Source: Actinomycetes bacterium (GTDB taxonomy: Bacteria > Actinomycetota > Aquicultoria > Aquicultorales > Aquicultoraceae). From it: a DNA stretch of 42,251 nt. The position numbers and the translations under genes are program-made. The stretch is taken from positions 1-42,251 of the forward strand of contig JAJYQA010000040.1 in NCBI GenBank assembly GCA_021794835.1. Direction: 5' to 3'. Of the stretch, positions 19,725 to 25,761 are shown in pieces. Every line of letters starts with the position of its first letter. Within the stretch, counting starts at the first letter, position 1. Under the pieces are notes generated by a model. That model saw only the letters and a list, made by a program, of their open reading frames with translations, searched no databases and was not told the origin of the DNA.

Positions 19725-20762
19725 TTAGCCAAAGAAGTAAAGCCGAAATCCCTTGTCTAAAAGAACATGTAGCCTTATCCAAAACATAAGCACAAATAAA
19801 AATCCCAGAGGGATATTTCGCAGGATAAGCATACGATAAGTCTTAAATTTAAGAAGTCTCTTAACTCTTGTCTCTAGGTGTAACTCACGGGTAAAATCGG
19901 TCTTGGCAACAGACCAGCTCGGTCTGACATCCTTGTAAGCAACCATGCGCTCGGCAACTTTAACCAGAGAGTTTGCCAGTTCAACGGGCTTTCCAGTAAA
20001 TCTTGCGGCTAAATGATCAGCCGCCTTTTCCCTTTCTTTCATCATCATATTAAAAGTAAACCAGGCAATCGGGTTAAAAAACATGAGGTCTCGACAGATG
20101 AGAGACAGACCAAGCCAGAAATTATCCCTTCTTTTAATATGAGCGATCTCATGGGCCAAGATGGCTTCAAGCTCATGCTCAAACAGACCATCAATTAGAT
20201 TATCAGGTAAAACTATAGCGGGGTTTAAAATACCAACCATAAATGGAGAAATTGTATCTGCAAGAACTACCTTAGGTGTTTTAATGCTGGCTCTCTTGGA
20301 TAAACTTTGCGTTAATCCAAGAATGACTCCATATCTAGCCGTATCAGTTTTTCCTCTTGCTGCCAAATTAGCCCTATATCTAACAATAGCAGACCATCTA
20401 ATAGCGATAAGCATAATTGCGGCAATTAAAACAACGGTAACTAACCAATCGAGAAGCCCAGTTCCATTTAGATAGTAGTAATAGTTATGAGAGTCTTTCA
20501 CGGCCCAAGATTGTGGGGCTAGGTTAAGTGGATCAGGTATTTGTGGTCTAATGCCAAAATACCTATAGTGATAGGTTTTTGTTAAATCAACCCCATTTAA
20601 TAATATAAGCAAAGGCTTCACAAGGGGGATAAGCAAAAACGTGTGTCTCACACCGGGTCTTTTAACGAAGATCATTACAATCAGTACCAAAAGCAGCGAA
20701 AAGGCGGACCCTGCAATTGTGGGTAGCATGTGGCTGAAGACTAATAACTTGAGTGTTCCCAT
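19725..20762 (-). CDS. M56 (BlaR1-like) membrane metalloprotease, copy 1
   Basis: A 345-residue protein with about four membrane segments and a cytoplasmic gluzincin-type site: LAHEIAHIKRRDN (HExxH) and a downstream MKEREKAADHLAA Glu. In BlaR1/MecR1 this domain triggers inactivation of the paired BlaI/MecI repressor. The C-terminal penicillin-binding sensor domain is absent, so the signal must be different. Its likely partner, the BlaI-like gene at 21963-22355, is separated from it by the opposite-strand M42 gene. The start ATG is at 20762. Confidence 0.85.
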   Translation of the reverse strand: MGTLKLLVFSHMLPTIAGSAFSLLLVLIVMIFVKRPGVRHTFLLIPLVKPLLILLNGVDLTKTYHYRYFGIRPQIPDPLNLAPQSWAVKDSHNYYYYLNGTGLLDWLVTVVLIAAIMLIAIRWSAIVRYRANLAARGKTDTARYGVILGLTQSLSKRASIKTPKVVLADTISPFMVGILNPAIVLPDNLIDGLFEHELEAILAHEIAHIKRRDNFWLGLSLICRDLMFFNPIAWFTFNMMMKEREKAADHLAARFTGKPVELANSLVKVAERMVAYKDVRPSWSVAKTDFTRELHLETRVKRLLKFKTYRMLILRNIPLGFLFVLMFWIRLHVLLDKGFRLYFFG

Positions 20763-20903: not shown

Positions 20904-21974
20904 ATGTCCAATTCGATTCAGTTGCTTGAAGAGCTGGTAAACACGCCTGGAGTTTCTGGTTTTGAAGACTCTGTTAGAGACGTGATCAGACGCCATCTTG
21001 AGTCTATTACAAATATTGAGATTGATAACCTAGGGAGCATTATCGCTCAAAAAGAGGGAAGCGACGAGAAACCTCGGGTAATGATCGCTGGTCACATGGA
21101 TGAAGTCGGCTTTATGGTCTCGTATATAAGTAAAGATGGGTTTATTAAGTTTCAGCCTCTTGGCGGCTGGTGGGATCAAGTTATGCTTGCGCAAAGGGTA
21201 GTTGTTAGGGGTAGCAAAGGTGAAGTGCCCGGGATCATTGGCTCCAAACCTCCTCACCTGCTTGCTCCTGAAGAGAGAAAAAAAGTTGTCGAGATGAAAG
21301 AGATGTTTGTCGACATAGGAGCTTCAAGCGACGAGGATGTTAAAGAAATGGGCATTAAACCCGGCGATCCGATTGTAGTTGTTAGCCCGTTTACCCGGAT
21401 GGGACACGAAAATATGCTGATGGGAAAGGCAATGGATGACCGGGTTGGCTGTGCGGTATTTGTGGAGGTTATAAAGCAGCTTCAAGGTGTTGGCCACCCC
21501 AATACGGTGTTTGGCGTAGGGACGGTGCAAGAAGAGGTGGGCTTAAGAGGCGCTAAAACCAGTGCTGATTTTATAAACCCAAATGTGGCTTTCGCCGCCG
21601 AAGTCTCGATCGCCGGTGATACCCCTGGAGTAGCTGAAAGCGAGGCCCAGGCCAAGCTTGGTAAAGGTCCGTCAATCGTTGTCCTGGACGGTAGTCTTAT
21701 CCCAAACACGAAATTGCGTGATTTAACCGTGGCAACTGCTGAAGAGCATGGCATACCGTATCAGTTCCAGGCGGGCATAAGGGGAGGGACTGATGCCGGC
21801 AGGATACACCTTCAGGGCATCGGGGTGCCCAGTCTCGTTCTTGGCGTCCCCGCAAGGTATATTCACAGCCACGTTGGGGTTATCGACCATAATGATTTTG
21901 AAAATACAGTGAAGCTACTGGTTGAGGTCGTCAAAAAGCTTGATGTTAATACTGTAAACGGATTAAGACCTTAG
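20904..21974 (+). CDS. M42 family aminopeptidase
   Basis: A 356-residue di-metal aminopeptidase of the glutamyl aminopeptidase/FrvX type. Metal and catalytic motifs are IAGHMDEVGFMV (His and Asp), KAMDDRVGCAV (bridging Asp), TVQEEVGLRGA (the EE catalytic base) and RYIHSHVGVIDHND (His). Such enzymes trim peptides in the cytoplasm. It is divergent from M56 copy 1, and its 3' end overlaps the convergent BlaI-like gene by 12 bases. A role in degrading the nearby small peptide is possible but speculative. Start ATG with GGGAGAG. Confidence 0.92.
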   Translation: MSNSIQLLEELVNTPGVSGFEDSVRDVIRRHLESITNIEIDNLGSIIAQKEGSDEKPRVMIAGHMDEVGFMVSYISKDGFIKFQPLGGWWDQVMLAQRVVVRGSKGEVPGIIGSKPPHLLAPEERKKVVEMKEMFVDIGASSDEDVKEMGIKPGDPIVVVSPFTRMGHENMLMGKAMDDRVGCAVFVEVIKQLQGVGHPNTVFGVGTVQEEVGLRGAKTSADFINPNVAFAAEVSIAGDTPGVAESEAQAKLGKGPSIVVLDGSLIPNTKLRDLTVATAEEHGIPYQFQAGIRGGTDAGRIHLQGIGVPSLVLGVPARYIHSHVGVIDHNDFENTVKLLVEVVKKLDVNTVNGLRP

Positions 21975-22355
21975 CTTTTCTTTGAGAACTAATAGCTCAT
22001 TAACTTCAGCTTCAGTTTTAAGCTTTAAAAGGTGGCGAAGTATAGGTATCGCGGAGCCACCGAGGATTCTATCGACCACATTATCGATGATCGAGCTTGC
22101 GACCTCGTTCTTACTGACCGCGGCGCTATATAAATAAGCTTTGCCGTTTTTATTTTGCTTCAGCAATCCTTTTTGTGCAAGGCTATTCATAACCGCCATA
22201 ATTGTTGTGTAGGGAATATAGCCCTTCTCCAGCATGGTTTCGTGAACTTCCCTTACTGTTATTTTCTTTTTCCCCCAGATGTTTTGCATGACTTCTGCTT
22301 CAATTGAGCTGAGGCCGTTTATGTCCGCACCCCTTTTTACAGCTCCTTTTTTCAT
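21963..22355 (-). CDS. BlaI/MecI-family repressor, copy 1
   Basis: A 130-residue winged-helix repressor: LSSIEAEVMQNIWGKKKITVREV, given by its ends, GYIPYTTIMAVMNSLAQKGLL and the wing NGKAYLYSAAVS. It shares most of its sequence with copy 2 at 25296-25697. In this family the paired M56 protease relieves repression. The start ATG 22355 has GGAGGGGG upstream; a longer frame is open but unsupported. A 16-bp palindrome (22381-22396) just upstream is a candidate operator. Confidence 0.9.
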   Translation of the reverse strand: MKKGAVKRGADINGLSSIEAEVMQNIWGKKKITVREVHETMLEKGYIPYTTIMAVMNSLAQKGLLKQNKNGKAYLYSAAVSKNEVASSIIDNVVDRILGGSAIPILRHLLKLKTEAEVNELLVLKEKLRS

Positions 22356-22502: not shown

Positions 22503-22531
22503 AAAGCGAGGGAATATAATTCCCTCGCTTT
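22503..22531 (-). terminator. Strong terminator of the RiPP-like operon
   Basis: A 13-bp perfect stem (AAAGCGAGGGAAT at 22503-22515, its complement at 22519-22531) with a 3-base loop. On the minus strand it is followed by six or more Ts. It lies 6 bases beyond the radical SAM stop codon. Confidence 0.9.
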
Positions 22532-22536
22532 ACAGA

Positions 22537-23895
22537 TTAGCCGCTAGCTTCGGCAGCCAAATCGTCTCTTATGTAGTCGAGATAGGCTAGAATTGTTTCC
22601 CTCACTCGGTTGCATACAGGTTTATTGATGTCGCCGTTTACCGCAAGGGCGGAGTAGGCACAACCCCCACCGCAAAGCAATGCGATGTCGCACTCTTTGC
22701 ACTCGCCCATAGCCAGAACATTCCTGCCGTTCCACAGTTTGACCGCCTCATCATACATCTTAAGGGTAGGTCGGAACTCACCGATGGCATGCTCTTTGTC
22801 TCCCATGACCTCGGTGCAGGCATAGATATAGCCGTCCGGCCCGAAGACCATGCTCTCCAGATTGTTGGCCTCGCAGTAGTGAAACATGGGCTGGACAGGT
22901 CTGCCACTTTCCAAGACCGATCTTATATGCGCAAGGTTTCTAAGCATGTTTAACTGAAAGACTTTTTTGTAAGCTGGGTTCTCAAATAGCCTAAATACCT
23001 CACTTACAAGCTTATCTTCCGACAGAAAGTAATCGTAGTTTCCCTTCTGCGCGTGATCCCGGACTGGGGAGAGGTTGCATAAAAAATGAGGATTATCGAC
23101 CCAGCCATTCTTAATGAACTCGCTATACAATTCTGGGACTAAGTCTATGTTTTGGCGGTCGACGTTTACCCTCACAGCTGTATTGATTTGTATCTTTAAC
23201 AGAGTATCTATTGCTGAGCGTGTGCTGGCAAAAGTGCCTTTGCCATCGGCATATTTTCGCCGCAGGTCATGTACACTTTGCGGCCCATCAAGCGTGATTT
23301 GAACCGAGCGGATCAAGTCCCGATTTGCGTTAAGCAGATCAGAGAACTTATCCAAGTAGGTGCCGTTGGTTACAATACCTATCGTCAAAGACCTTTTAGC
23401 TGTTTCCTTGAATATTTTTTCTACTAAGGGTTTTGTTTTAGGGAGCAGCGGCTCCCCACCAAATAATTCAATCGTGCTCTCGCGGCCAAAGGTCTGCATT
23501 AGCTCATCAATTGCCTGGAAGACAAGGCCAACATCAGCTGTGTTCATAAAGGCTTTGCCGTTATGCGTAAGCTCACCTTCAAAGCAGTAAGTACACCTTA
23601 AATTGCAGCTATAGGTGGGGCAAATCGTAAAAGATAACCGTTTCTTTGAGTTTTTAAATGTATCCGCAACCATTTGCAGGCGTGCTTCTTCGGCAGCGTC
23701 GCTTTCAACGAGATAGCCGCGTTTTTTAAGACGCTCGATCATTGATCTATCGATTCTTCCTTGCCCAAGGTCAGGGGATTGCAGGAAGCGGTAGACCTGC
23801 GAATCCACAAGGTCTACCGCCCCGGTCAGCGTATTGATCAGCAGCGTCGATTCCTCCGAAATTTGGTATGACAAAACATATTTACTAGTTTTCAC
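22537..23895 (-). CDS. Radical SAM/SPASM peptide maturase
   Basis: A 452-residue enzyme with three visible parts. Residues 1-80 resemble the peptide-binding leader region of RiPP maturases (YQISEESTLLINTLTGAVDL). The radical SAM core carries CPTYSCNLRCTYCFEG, the CxxxCxxC cluster site, and ELFGGEPLL. The C-terminal SPASM domain contains Cys residues at YCEANNL, IYACTEV, GECKECDIALLCGGGCAY and VCNRV for auxiliary clusters. Such enzymes install thioether or carbon cross-links in small peptides. GTG start with GAGG upstream. A 36-residue peptide gene lies 79 bases upstream on the same strand. Confidence 0.92.
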   Translation of the reverse strand: MKTSKYVLSYQISEESTLLINTLTGAVDLVDSQVYRFLQSPDLGQGRIDRSMIERLKKRGYLVESDAAEEARLQMVADTFKNSKKRLSFTICPTYSCNLRCTYCFEGELTHNGKAFMNTADVGLVFQAIDELMQTFGRESTIELFGGEPLLPKTKPLVEKIFKETAKRSLTIGIVTNGTYLDKFSDLLNANRDLIRSVQITLDGPQSVHDLRRKYADGKGTFASTRSAIDTLLKIQINTAVRVNVDRQNIDLVPELYSEFIKNGWVDNPHFLCNLSPVRDHAQKGNYDYFLSEDKLVSEVFRLFENPAYKKVFQLNMLRNLAHIRSVLESGRPVQPMFHYCEANNLESMVFGPDGYIYACTEVMGDKEHAIGEFRPTLKMYDEAVKLWNGRNVLAMGECKECDIALLCGGGCAYSALAVNGDINKPVCNRVRETILAYLDYIRDDLAAEASG

Positions 23896-23915
23896 TTTAC
23901 CTCACTTGTCCGTCC

Positions 23916-23954
23916 TCAGCGAAAGTACCCGAAGCAGCACGAGGTGCTGTCTCT
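23916..23954 (-). pseudogene. Decayed second core-peptide copy
   Basis: Twelve codons reading RDSTSCCFGYFR then stop, with a stop immediately upstream and no start. It shares the exact 18-base stretch AGCACCTCGTGCTGCTTC with the intact peptide gene 71 bases away and in a different frame. It looks like a partial duplication of the peptide's core. The shared stretch is also a small hairpin (AGCAC-CTC-GTGCT), so an RNA role is an alternative. Confidence 0.5.
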
Positions 23955-23974
23955 TTAGCCTGGAATAATTCCCG

Positions 23975-24085
23975 CTACCATCCCCAGCAATATGAGTAAT
24001 AGAAGCAGCACGAGGTGCTATCCTCAAGGCATTCTGCGTGCTCGATTGCGTCCCAGAGCATATCATCCCTGTTAAGAGATCTCAT
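23975..24085 (-). CDS. Candidate RiPP precursor peptide (36 aa)
   Basis: A short gene between the M56 copy 2 and maturase genes. ATG at 24085 is preceded by GGAGGTGAT, an excellent ribosome site nine bases away. The N-terminal half (MRSLNRDDMLWDAIEHAE) looks like a helical leader. The C-terminal half, CLEDSTSCCFYYSYCWGW, has four Cys and seven aromatic residues, as expected of a substrate for a radical SAM/SPASM maturase. Directly downstream is a partial duplicate of the core. I do not recognise a known precursor family. The coding call rests on the ribosome site, the composition and the maturase next door. Confidence 0.75.
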   Translation of the reverse strand: MRSLNRDDMLWDAIEHAECLEDSTSCCFYYSYCWGW

Positions 24086-24133
24086 GCGTTATCACCTCCA
24101 TATAGCGGATAGATATAATGGCCGGATAATTGA

Positions 24134-25225
24134 CTAATGAAGAATTAAGACTAGCCTATCATAGGCATTGATTGCAATAATGGGGTGGATGAGAAGAATA
24201 GCCGTGATAGCAAATACTAGTAAGGCCCCTTTAAGCCAACGCAGGGGCAAAAACGAACGTCCGCTGGGTTTTTGTTTGGCGATGGAATTTACCCTTCGCT
24301 CCAGGGCAGATTTACGGTATAAAAAACGATGTAGAAAACCCTTTGAGAGGGCCGGGTAGGTAACCTTTTGGGCTGATTCAACTTTCTTGCGAAAAATAGC
24401 TACATCAAGCAGGGTGTTGGCAATTGCTTTAGCGGATAGGCCGGTTTTTTCCAGGGCTATTCTATCGCAGGCCTTCTCCTTTTCTTCTTCAATCATGCGG
24501 TATATTGGATACGACATCGGGTTAAAGAACAGCAGGTCTCGAAGAATAAGGGAAGCCCAGCTGGTAAAATTATCATGGCGCCTTATATGGGCCAGCTCAT
24601 GGGCCAGCATTATTTCAAGCTGCTCTTTAGAGAAATTATCGATTAAGTCTTTGGTTAATACTATTATCGGTACCCTGTAGCCAACGCTAAAGGGTACAAA
24701 CTGGTATTTTTTGGTAATAACTAGCTCGGGCTGCCTGACTTTAAACTTCCCAACCAGCTCATCAAGGATGGCATAGATTTGGGGATACTTGTCTTTGCTG
24801 AGGCGCTCTTCTTTTTTTAAGGAATTCAGGAAAAGGAAAAGCTGGACCCATCGAGCTACCAGCACGAGGATAATCGAAATAACAGCAAGCCGGAACCCTA
24901 ACTCAATGATTGAATATTTAAGGGTAAAGGTTCCGGGAAGTTCAAAGTGCGTTGGAATTCTTGGTGCTTTAAGCACCCCTAGCGGGTCATCAAATCTAGC
25001 CGAGAGCCAGAAATGCTTCTGAAAGTTGACGTGTGGATGCCAGCTTCCTCCTTCTATAAAATCAATCAGTGCCTTTACCAGCGGCAAAAAAAGAAAAATA
25101 AATCTTGTCGCCGGGTTTTTTATCCTAAAAATCTTTAGAATTGCAAGCACAATTAAAAGCGTCACTGCCGCTTGCAGGATCGACGGTATGATCTTGTCTA
25201 GCAAAAGCGATTGCAAAAGAGGCAC
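24134..25225 (-). CDS. M56 (BlaR1-like) membrane metalloprotease, copy 2
   Basis: A 363-residue paralogue of the protein at 19725-20762. It has about four membrane helices and an intact site MLAHELAHIRRHDN with a later EEEKEKACDRIAL Glu. It again lacks a BlaR1 sensor domain. GTG start at 25225. It follows the BlaI-like copy 2 gene by 70 bases, and its stop is 49 bases before the peptide gene's start. Membership in the peptide operon suggests it senses or cleaves the peptide or its leader, or only relieves repression. Confidence 0.85.
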   Translation of the reverse strand: MPLLQSLLLDKIIPSILQAAVTLLIVLAILKIFRIKNPATRFIFLFLPLVKALIDFIEGGSWHPHVNFQKHFWLSARFDDPLGVLKAPRIPTHFELPGTFTLKYSIIELGFRLAVISIILVLVARWVQLFLFLNSLKKEERLSKDKYPQIYAILDELVGKFKVRQPELVITKKYQFVPFSVGYRVPIIVLTKDLIDNFSKEQLEIMLAHELAHIRRHDNFTSWASLILRDLLFFNPMSYPIYRMIEEEKEKACDRIALEKTGLSAKAIANTLLDVAIFRKKVESAQKVTYPALSKGFLHRFLYRKSALERRVNSIAKQKPSGRSFLPLRWLKGALLVFAITAILLIHPIIAINAYDRLVLILH

Positions 25226-25295
25226 AAAATGTACCCTTGCCTTTATTAATCTGCCTCTTTAGTTCAAGAAGCTTTTTTATGCCATCTTCTTTATA
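25226..25295 (-). pseudogene. Duplicated 3' tail of a BlaI-like gene
   Basis: On the minus strand this gap reads EDGIKKLLELKRQIN in one frame. It parallels the real C terminus (EEDVDKLLELKGQLN) of the BlaI-like gene just upstream. It appears to be a small tandem duplication or the remnant of another copy. Confidence 0.5.
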
Positions 25296-25697
25296 TTAAT
25301 TAAGCTGTCCCTTTAGTTCAAGAAGCTTATCTACATCCTCTTCTTTTTTTAGCTTAAGAAGATGCGAAATAAGCGGCGTTGCCGTTCCTCCTAGAATCTT
25401 GTTCACCACGCCGTCAACGATATTTTTTGCCATAGCATCCCTACTAACTGCGGCGGAATAAATATAGGCTTTGCCGTTTCTGTTCTGCTTTAGGAGACCT
25501 TTTTGCGCCATGTTGTTCATAGCCGCCATGACGGTTGTGTAGGGGATATAACCCTCCTCGAGCATGGTCTCATGAACCTCGCGCACGGTAATTTTTTTGT
25601 ACTGCCACACGATGTTCATGATGTCTGCCTCAAGAGTACTGAGGCCGTTGATCCCTAGTTTCTTGGATCTTTTTCTTGCCACTGGTTGCCTTTCCAT
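25296..25697 (-). CDS. BlaI/MecI-family repressor, copy 2
   Basis: A 133-residue winged-helix repressor closely matching copy 1: LSTLEADIMNIVWQYKKITV, REVHETMLEEGYIPYTTVMA, MAQKGLLKQNRNGKAYIYSA and a helical C terminus ILGGTATPLISHLLKLKKEE. It is the first gene of a minus-strand series BlaI, M56, 36-aa peptide, maturase, and probably represses it. The start ATG has GAGAGGAG upstream. A promoter with TTGACT and TAAACT lies about 36-64 bases ahead. Confidence 0.9.
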   Translation of the reverse strand: MERQPVARKRSKKLGINGLSTLEADIMNIVWQYKKITVREVHETMLEEGYIPYTTVMAAMNNMAQKGLLKQNRNGKAYIYSAAVSRDAMAKNIVDGVVNKILGGTATPLISHLLKLKKEEDVDKLLELKGQLN

Positions 25698-25732
25698 TTT
25701 TTGACTCCTCTCACCTTACGTTTTTACTGATA

Positions 25733-25761
25733 AGTTTATATATTAAGTATTTAGCAGTCAA
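25733..25761 (-). promoter_or_regulatory. Candidate promoter of the BlaI-M56-peptide-maturase operon
   Basis: On the minus strand TTGACT (25756-25761), a 17-base spacer and TAAACT (25733-25738), 35 bases before the repressor start codon. No clear palindrome overlaps it. Confidence 0.6.

Follow-up and report, generated by a model that had tools for sequence, protein, structure and literature searches.

The window analysed here, the whole 42,251-nucleotide stretch of contig JAJYQA010000040.1, comes from an uncultured organism close to Candidatus Aquicultor (Actinomycetota). Between positions 22,503 and 25,761 its minus strand carries an operon of the type that makes ribosomally synthesized and post-translationally modified peptides (RiPPs), in which a promoter is followed by a BlaI-family repressor gene, an M56 peptidase gene, a gene of 36 codons, a radical S-adenosylmethionine (SAM)/SPASM gene and a terminator. 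All of these parts, including the missing sensor of the M56 protein and the ribosome-binding site of the short gene, had been claimed in an initial annotation made from the DNA letters, and all were confirmed:

25733–25761, minus strand: promoter TTGACT-17-TAAACT, recognized by its match to the consensus
25296–25697, minus strand: BlaI-family repressor BlaIa (PF03965, E = 1.1e-25), syntenic in relatives
24134–25225, minus strand: M56 membrane metallopeptidase M56a, of BlaR1 type but without the beta-lactam sensor (PF05569, E = 3e-24)
24093–24099, minus strand: GGAGGTG, the ribosome-binding site for the precursor, ending 7 nt ahead of the ATG start codon
23975–24085, minus strand: precursor peptide gene of 36 codons, MRSLNRDDMLWDAIEHAECLEDSTSCCFYYSYCWGW, conserved in relatives and recovered by leave-out profiles
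22537–23895, minus strand: radical SAM/SPASM maturase with an N-terminal domain resembling a RiPP recognition element (RRE), supported by PF04055, SPASM TIGR04085, invariant cysteines, a structure model and a fold search
22503–22531, minus strand: intrinsic terminator closing the operon, with a 13-bp stem

Across nine relatives the TTGACT element of the promoter does not vary and the −10 region hardly does, and the folding energy of the terminator is −19.7 kcal/mol, compared with −6.1 (standard deviation 2.1) in shuffles.

Sequence comparison shows that the 36-codon gene is real. Re-calling of short genes in homologous loci, followed by alignment of their products, yielded a conserved peptide of 30–54 residues, encoded either in the gap before the maturase gene or in the stretch that follows M56. 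These peptides share one plan, in which an M(K)SLN..D..LW leader and a variable stretch precede a very hydrophobic CC(W/F)..C core, in which an aromatic or aliphatic residue usually comes after the third cysteine; all 24 sequences compared have W11, C26 and C27. Among 1250 stop-to-stop frames, leave-out profiles rank the open reading frame (ORF) at 23975–24085 first, with E values of 7.5e-14, 7.4e-8 and 4.6e-6 when the window, the family and the class, respectively, are omitted from the profile. The runner-up frame reaches an E value of only about 0.45–1, a gap of at least five orders of magnitude, and a chance ORF is thereby ruled out. The precursor has no match among NCBIfam models even at E = 10, nor in Pfam at 0.01. 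A 28-nt piece of the peptide core (23995–24022) recurs 71 nt downstream, in the stretch that separates the peptide gene from the maturase gene (23924–23951, 86% identical), where one frame reads DSTSCCFGYFR-stop with no start codon and is like a degenerate second core.

The maturase exceeds the SPASM cut-off of TIGR04085 clearly (54.8 bits versus 27). Its radical SAM motif CX3CX2C (C97, C101 and C104) and its SPASM cysteines (C341, C360, C399, C402, C408, C412 and C428) are invariant in alignments of 17 and 35 sequences. The structure model is confident (predicted local distance difference test score 92), and residues 7–81 at its N-terminus form a predicted β3-α3 domain with the topology of an RRE. 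In a whole-chain fold search the closest protein was CteB, a thioether-forming enzyme, followed by anSME, ChlB, SuiB and TigE, and CteB structures were the top matches by sequence as well as by fold. Nevertheless, the NCBIfam scores of 108–172 bits lie below cut-offs of 340–600 (best 171.7 versus 600, for CefB), so that the protein falls outside the curated limits of the CefB, Clo7bot, TIGR04463, geopeptide, PapB and SCIFF maturase families; among the CteB/CefB/Clo7bot/TIGR04463-like SPASM maturases it forms a divergent branch.

The M56 family profile aligns only to residues 5–328 of the 602 residues of BlaR1, that is, to its membrane and zinc-protease part. M56a has four hydrophobic segments and a loop at the position of extracellular loop 1 (EL1) of BlaR1, and the chain ends 11 residues past the fourth segment; both this chain end and the alignment with BlaR1 place no C-terminal penicillin-binding sensor domain in M56a. 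BlaR1 is the top Foldseek match, and the zinc-site residues H209, E210, H213, E250 and D254 (HExxH...ExxxD) are invariant. The retained loop, approximately residues 58–104, contains a conserved R.PDP motif in which P81 is nearly invariant. Judged by its sequence, M56a is not a BlaR1, since the sensor is absent, and it scores 52.8 bits against the BlaR1 NCBIfam cut-off of 400. BlaIa, by comparison, carries a Penicillinase_R domain at 90.7 bits versus a gathering score of 22.6. The end of its gene is partly duplicated (25242–25266 and 25296–25320) within the gap preceding M56a.

A search of other genomes for the maturase beside BlaI and M56 showed that this maturase branch recurs with both the peptide and M56. 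Neither of the two outcomes that the initial annotation had named as refuting its proposal was observed. The complete BlaI-M56-peptide-maturase unit occurs throughout the family, in 11 of 11 genomes, as well as in other deep Actinomycetota. The maturase itself occurs in all 11 family genomes and in 18 of the 36 class genomes, with one weak match in addition, while the peptide profile finds convincing matches in 19 of these 36. Among 396 sampled Actinomycetota genomes the peptide is found in 30, two families outside the class included; maturase and M56 adjoin it wherever the contig extends, and BlaI adjoins most. The unit is also found in metagenome-assembled genomes (MAGs) labelled Chloroflexi (L057), Bacillota (L059), Aerophobetes (L061) and Armatimonadetes (L069 and L090), and in one labelled Thermoleophilia (L082) whose contig stops within M56, although the phylum labels of MAGs may be wrong.

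By our count over the neighbourhoods of the sampled genomes, the gene immediately before the peptide, in the same orientation, is M56 at 35 of 36 informative loci, whereas BlaI precedes M56 at about 27 of 33. The single exception is the second copy in genome G011, which has two peptide-maturase copies (L033 and L034), at one of which M56 is convergent rather than upstream. In four genomes (G012 and G016–G018) the maturase is divergently transcribed, and the M56-peptide pair is intact. Within the class, an M56 scoring above the cut-off is present in each of the 19 genomes that carry the peptide, but in only 2 of the 17 others; the genomes are related, so these are not independent events. No transporter or immunity gene recurs across the diverse loci, where only M56, the maturase and BlaI do, and no transporter was found among the scanned flanking genes of the window. 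M56, rather than BlaI, is the partner that the peptide consistently keeps. The BlaR1-like control proposed in the initial annotation is thus borne out as a real linkage, but not as a constant role for BlaI, which is missing at some loci.

Pairing of precursor and maturase is strongly supported by these sequences, because their adjacency and co-occurrence are conserved and because, in the two Armatimonadetes copies, which sit on one contig, CCWNIC/CCWNVC shares a single open frame with the maturase (L069, 5671–7332; L090, 5713–7584). These frames look like a natural fusion of substrate and enzyme; this needs confirmation, since long open frames arise easily at high G+C. In the trees, the BlaI/M56-linked maturases fall into a single group (Shimodaira–Hasegawa-like approximate likelihood ratio test, SH-aLRT, 91; in the other tree bootstrap 72 and SH-aLRT 85). 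Monophyly is moderately supported, so that a single origin is likely, not proven.

The nearest tree groups are maturases of Lachnospiraceae and Paenibacillus (L062, L072, L076 and L080). Their precursors, where found, share an (S/N)(L/I/M)N...LW leader with the peptides described here but are longer and have different Cys-rich cores. Beside these sister maturases lie an ABC transporter and an HExxH protease related to the daptide and YydH-LiaK models, and neither BlaI nor M56 was found near them. The same type of leader with longer Cys-rich cores is seen more broadly in Lachnospiraceae, other Clostridia and Paenibacillus (also L067, L075 and L077), and the four such precursors tested have no NCBIfam match.

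Among known systems, CteB/SCIFF, CefB (NF038107), TIGR04463, Clo7bot (TIGR04334) and PapB (NF047865) share with the present locus the CX3CX2C core, the SPASM clusters, an N-terminal RRE-like domain (predicted here) and a short Cys-rich precursor next door. They differ in the precursor, which follows a six-Cys or Cys-every-fifth plan instead of a CC-aromatic core with three cysteines, and in lacking the linkage to M56/BlaI. BlaR1/BlaI (MecR1/MecI) has the same adjoining PF03965 repressor and M56 protease, with common membrane topology and zinc site, but here there is no beta-lactam sensor and the neighbouring gene encodes a RiPP precursor rather than a beta-lactamase. Epipeptide yydFGHIJ and daptide-type loci likewise combine a small precursor, a radical SAM enzyme (in yyd) and a membrane protease with an HExxH motif, which is believed to free the product, as YydH does for YydF (PMC7026026). 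In contrast to the present locus, they have a non-M56 protease and an ABC transporter and lack BlaI, and YydF is epimerized and has a different core.

From the gene content, its conservation and linkage and the predicted folds, we infer how the peptide is modified and cleaved, how the operon is regulated and what it does. We lean, with modest confidence, towards a minimal, self-regulated RiPP operon in which M56, lacking its sensor, would process or read the modified peptide and, where BlaI is present, relieve repression. The RRE-like domain of the maturase would probably grip the SLN..D..LW leader, and the enzyme would probably cross-link the CC(W/F)..C core by radical chemistry; both steps are suggested by the RRE topology and CteB-like fold of the model. 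M56 would then most likely cut or bind the modified peptide at the membrane, filling the place that a YydH/daptide-like intramembrane protease holds in the sister systems. It is favoured for this role because the sisters have a protease there, no transporter recurs, and M56 accompanies the peptide whether or not BlaI is there. Where present, BlaI may repress the operon, and peptide-coupled M56 activity may relieve repression through BlaI cleavage by analogy with BlaR1, which cleaves BlaI with the same kind of domain (PMC9834060). It is more likely that the operon would serve the envelope or signalling physiology of its own cell than warfare, given the lack of a shared transporter or immunity gene and its presence in every family member examined.

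Several observations weigh against this scheme. The protease site of BlaR1-type proteins faces the cytoplasm and alone would not release a peptide outside. BlaI is absent beside M56 at several loci, so BlaI control is not universal, and in G016, an 87%-complete genome with M56, peptide and maturase, no BlaI is detectable. At the promoter, no conserved BlaI operator dyad was found, and dyads stood out from shuffles in two close relatives only.

A serious rival, though in our judgement an unlikely one, is that the modified peptide is itself the M56 ligand and triggers BlaI cleavage in a self-sensing loop, the peptide inserting in the membrane or reaching its outer face and binding the retained M56 loop. 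It must be taken seriously because BlaR1 signals through EL1 (residues 56–96), which relays the signal to the protease (PMC9834060), and the equivalent loop is kept in M56a while the sensor is gone. The near-invariance of P81 and the hydrophobic core of the peptide fit such binding, and ranthipeptides derived from SCIFF reportedly contribute to clostridial quorum sensing (Chen et al. 2020, as cited in PMC8102284). The M56-peptide pairs without an adjoining BlaI, the genome with no detectable BlaI and the lack of an exporter at the loci argue against it.

Alternatively, BlaI and M56 could sense an unrelated envelope stress and induce an antimicrobial or envelope peptide that M56 leaves untouched. 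Effectors are classically induced by BlaI/BlaR1, and YydF provides an example of a small radical-SAM peptide able to perturb membranes (PMC7026026). However, a plain inducer would be expected to have varied targets, whereas M56 keeps the same peptide across phyla, even without BlaI, and no immunity or transporter gene recurs; we regard this explanation as improbable. Chance placement of a common BlaI/M56 pair beside an unrelated maturase operon has in its favour that BlaI genes are common (four in this genome), but it is very improbable and largely refuted by the conserved linkage, with a gene order that persists across MAGs of several phyla and even where the maturase gene has been rearranged, class-wide co-occurrence of peptide and M56, and clustering of the linked maturases on the tree.

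Downstream of the operon the window contains a second repressor and a second M56 peptidase:

21963–22355, minus strand: BlaI-family repressor BlaIb, with its own upstream region, directly past the operon terminator
19725–20762, minus strand: M56 peptidase M56b (PF05569, E = 3.3e-21)

BlaIb is 67% identical to BlaIa and is kept at the same place in most family members whose contigs extend that far. M56a and M56b are the only M56 genes over the cut-off in the genome. M56b has no directly adjoining repressor, an M42 aminopeptidase gene lying between it and BlaIb, and is a possible partner of BlaIb. A second radical SAM match in the genome was dismissed as weak, fragmentary and unrelated. Elsewhere, short ORFs just upstream of the maturase in unrelated MAGs (L094, L096, L100 and L103) share the terminal motif (V)AQCC(A/S)K.S....GCHD and are apparently another precursor family, and in a member of Theionarchaea an ORF of repeated FCALEVQPT units (L079, 5759–5971) precedes two tandem SPASM maturases.

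The suggestion that a BlaI/M56 and radical SAM RiPP combination had gone undescribed agrees with the open-access literature searched, in which no description was found (subscription journals lay mostly outside this search). One apparent mention of BlaI in a paper found this way was the author name Blair, and in a C. difficile survey BlaI/M56 genes and a radical SAM gene are both named, but each in its own section and for different elements. A RiPP-type locus with a conserved precursor and recurrent BlaI/M56 linkage stands, but the further step of calling it a new class is not yet earned on sequence evidence, since RiPP classes are defined by chemistry.

Our results add a precursor family that none of the scanned curated models covers, a branch of maturases belonging to no named NCBIfam family and, in little-studied phyla, a BlaR1-type protease repeatedly linked to a putatively modified peptide. 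To our knowledge, targets or signals are known for few sensorless M56 proteins; with a candidate substrate or ligand next door in 35 of 36 loci, this question becomes directly testable. We know of no circuit in which a RiPP steers gene expression through regulated BlaI proteolysis. Should the peptide prove to be the M56 ligand, which we consider possible but doubtful, the operon would be such a case, with the RiPP controlling gene expression through BlaI proteolysis and M56 acting as a peptide-sensing analogue of BlaR1.

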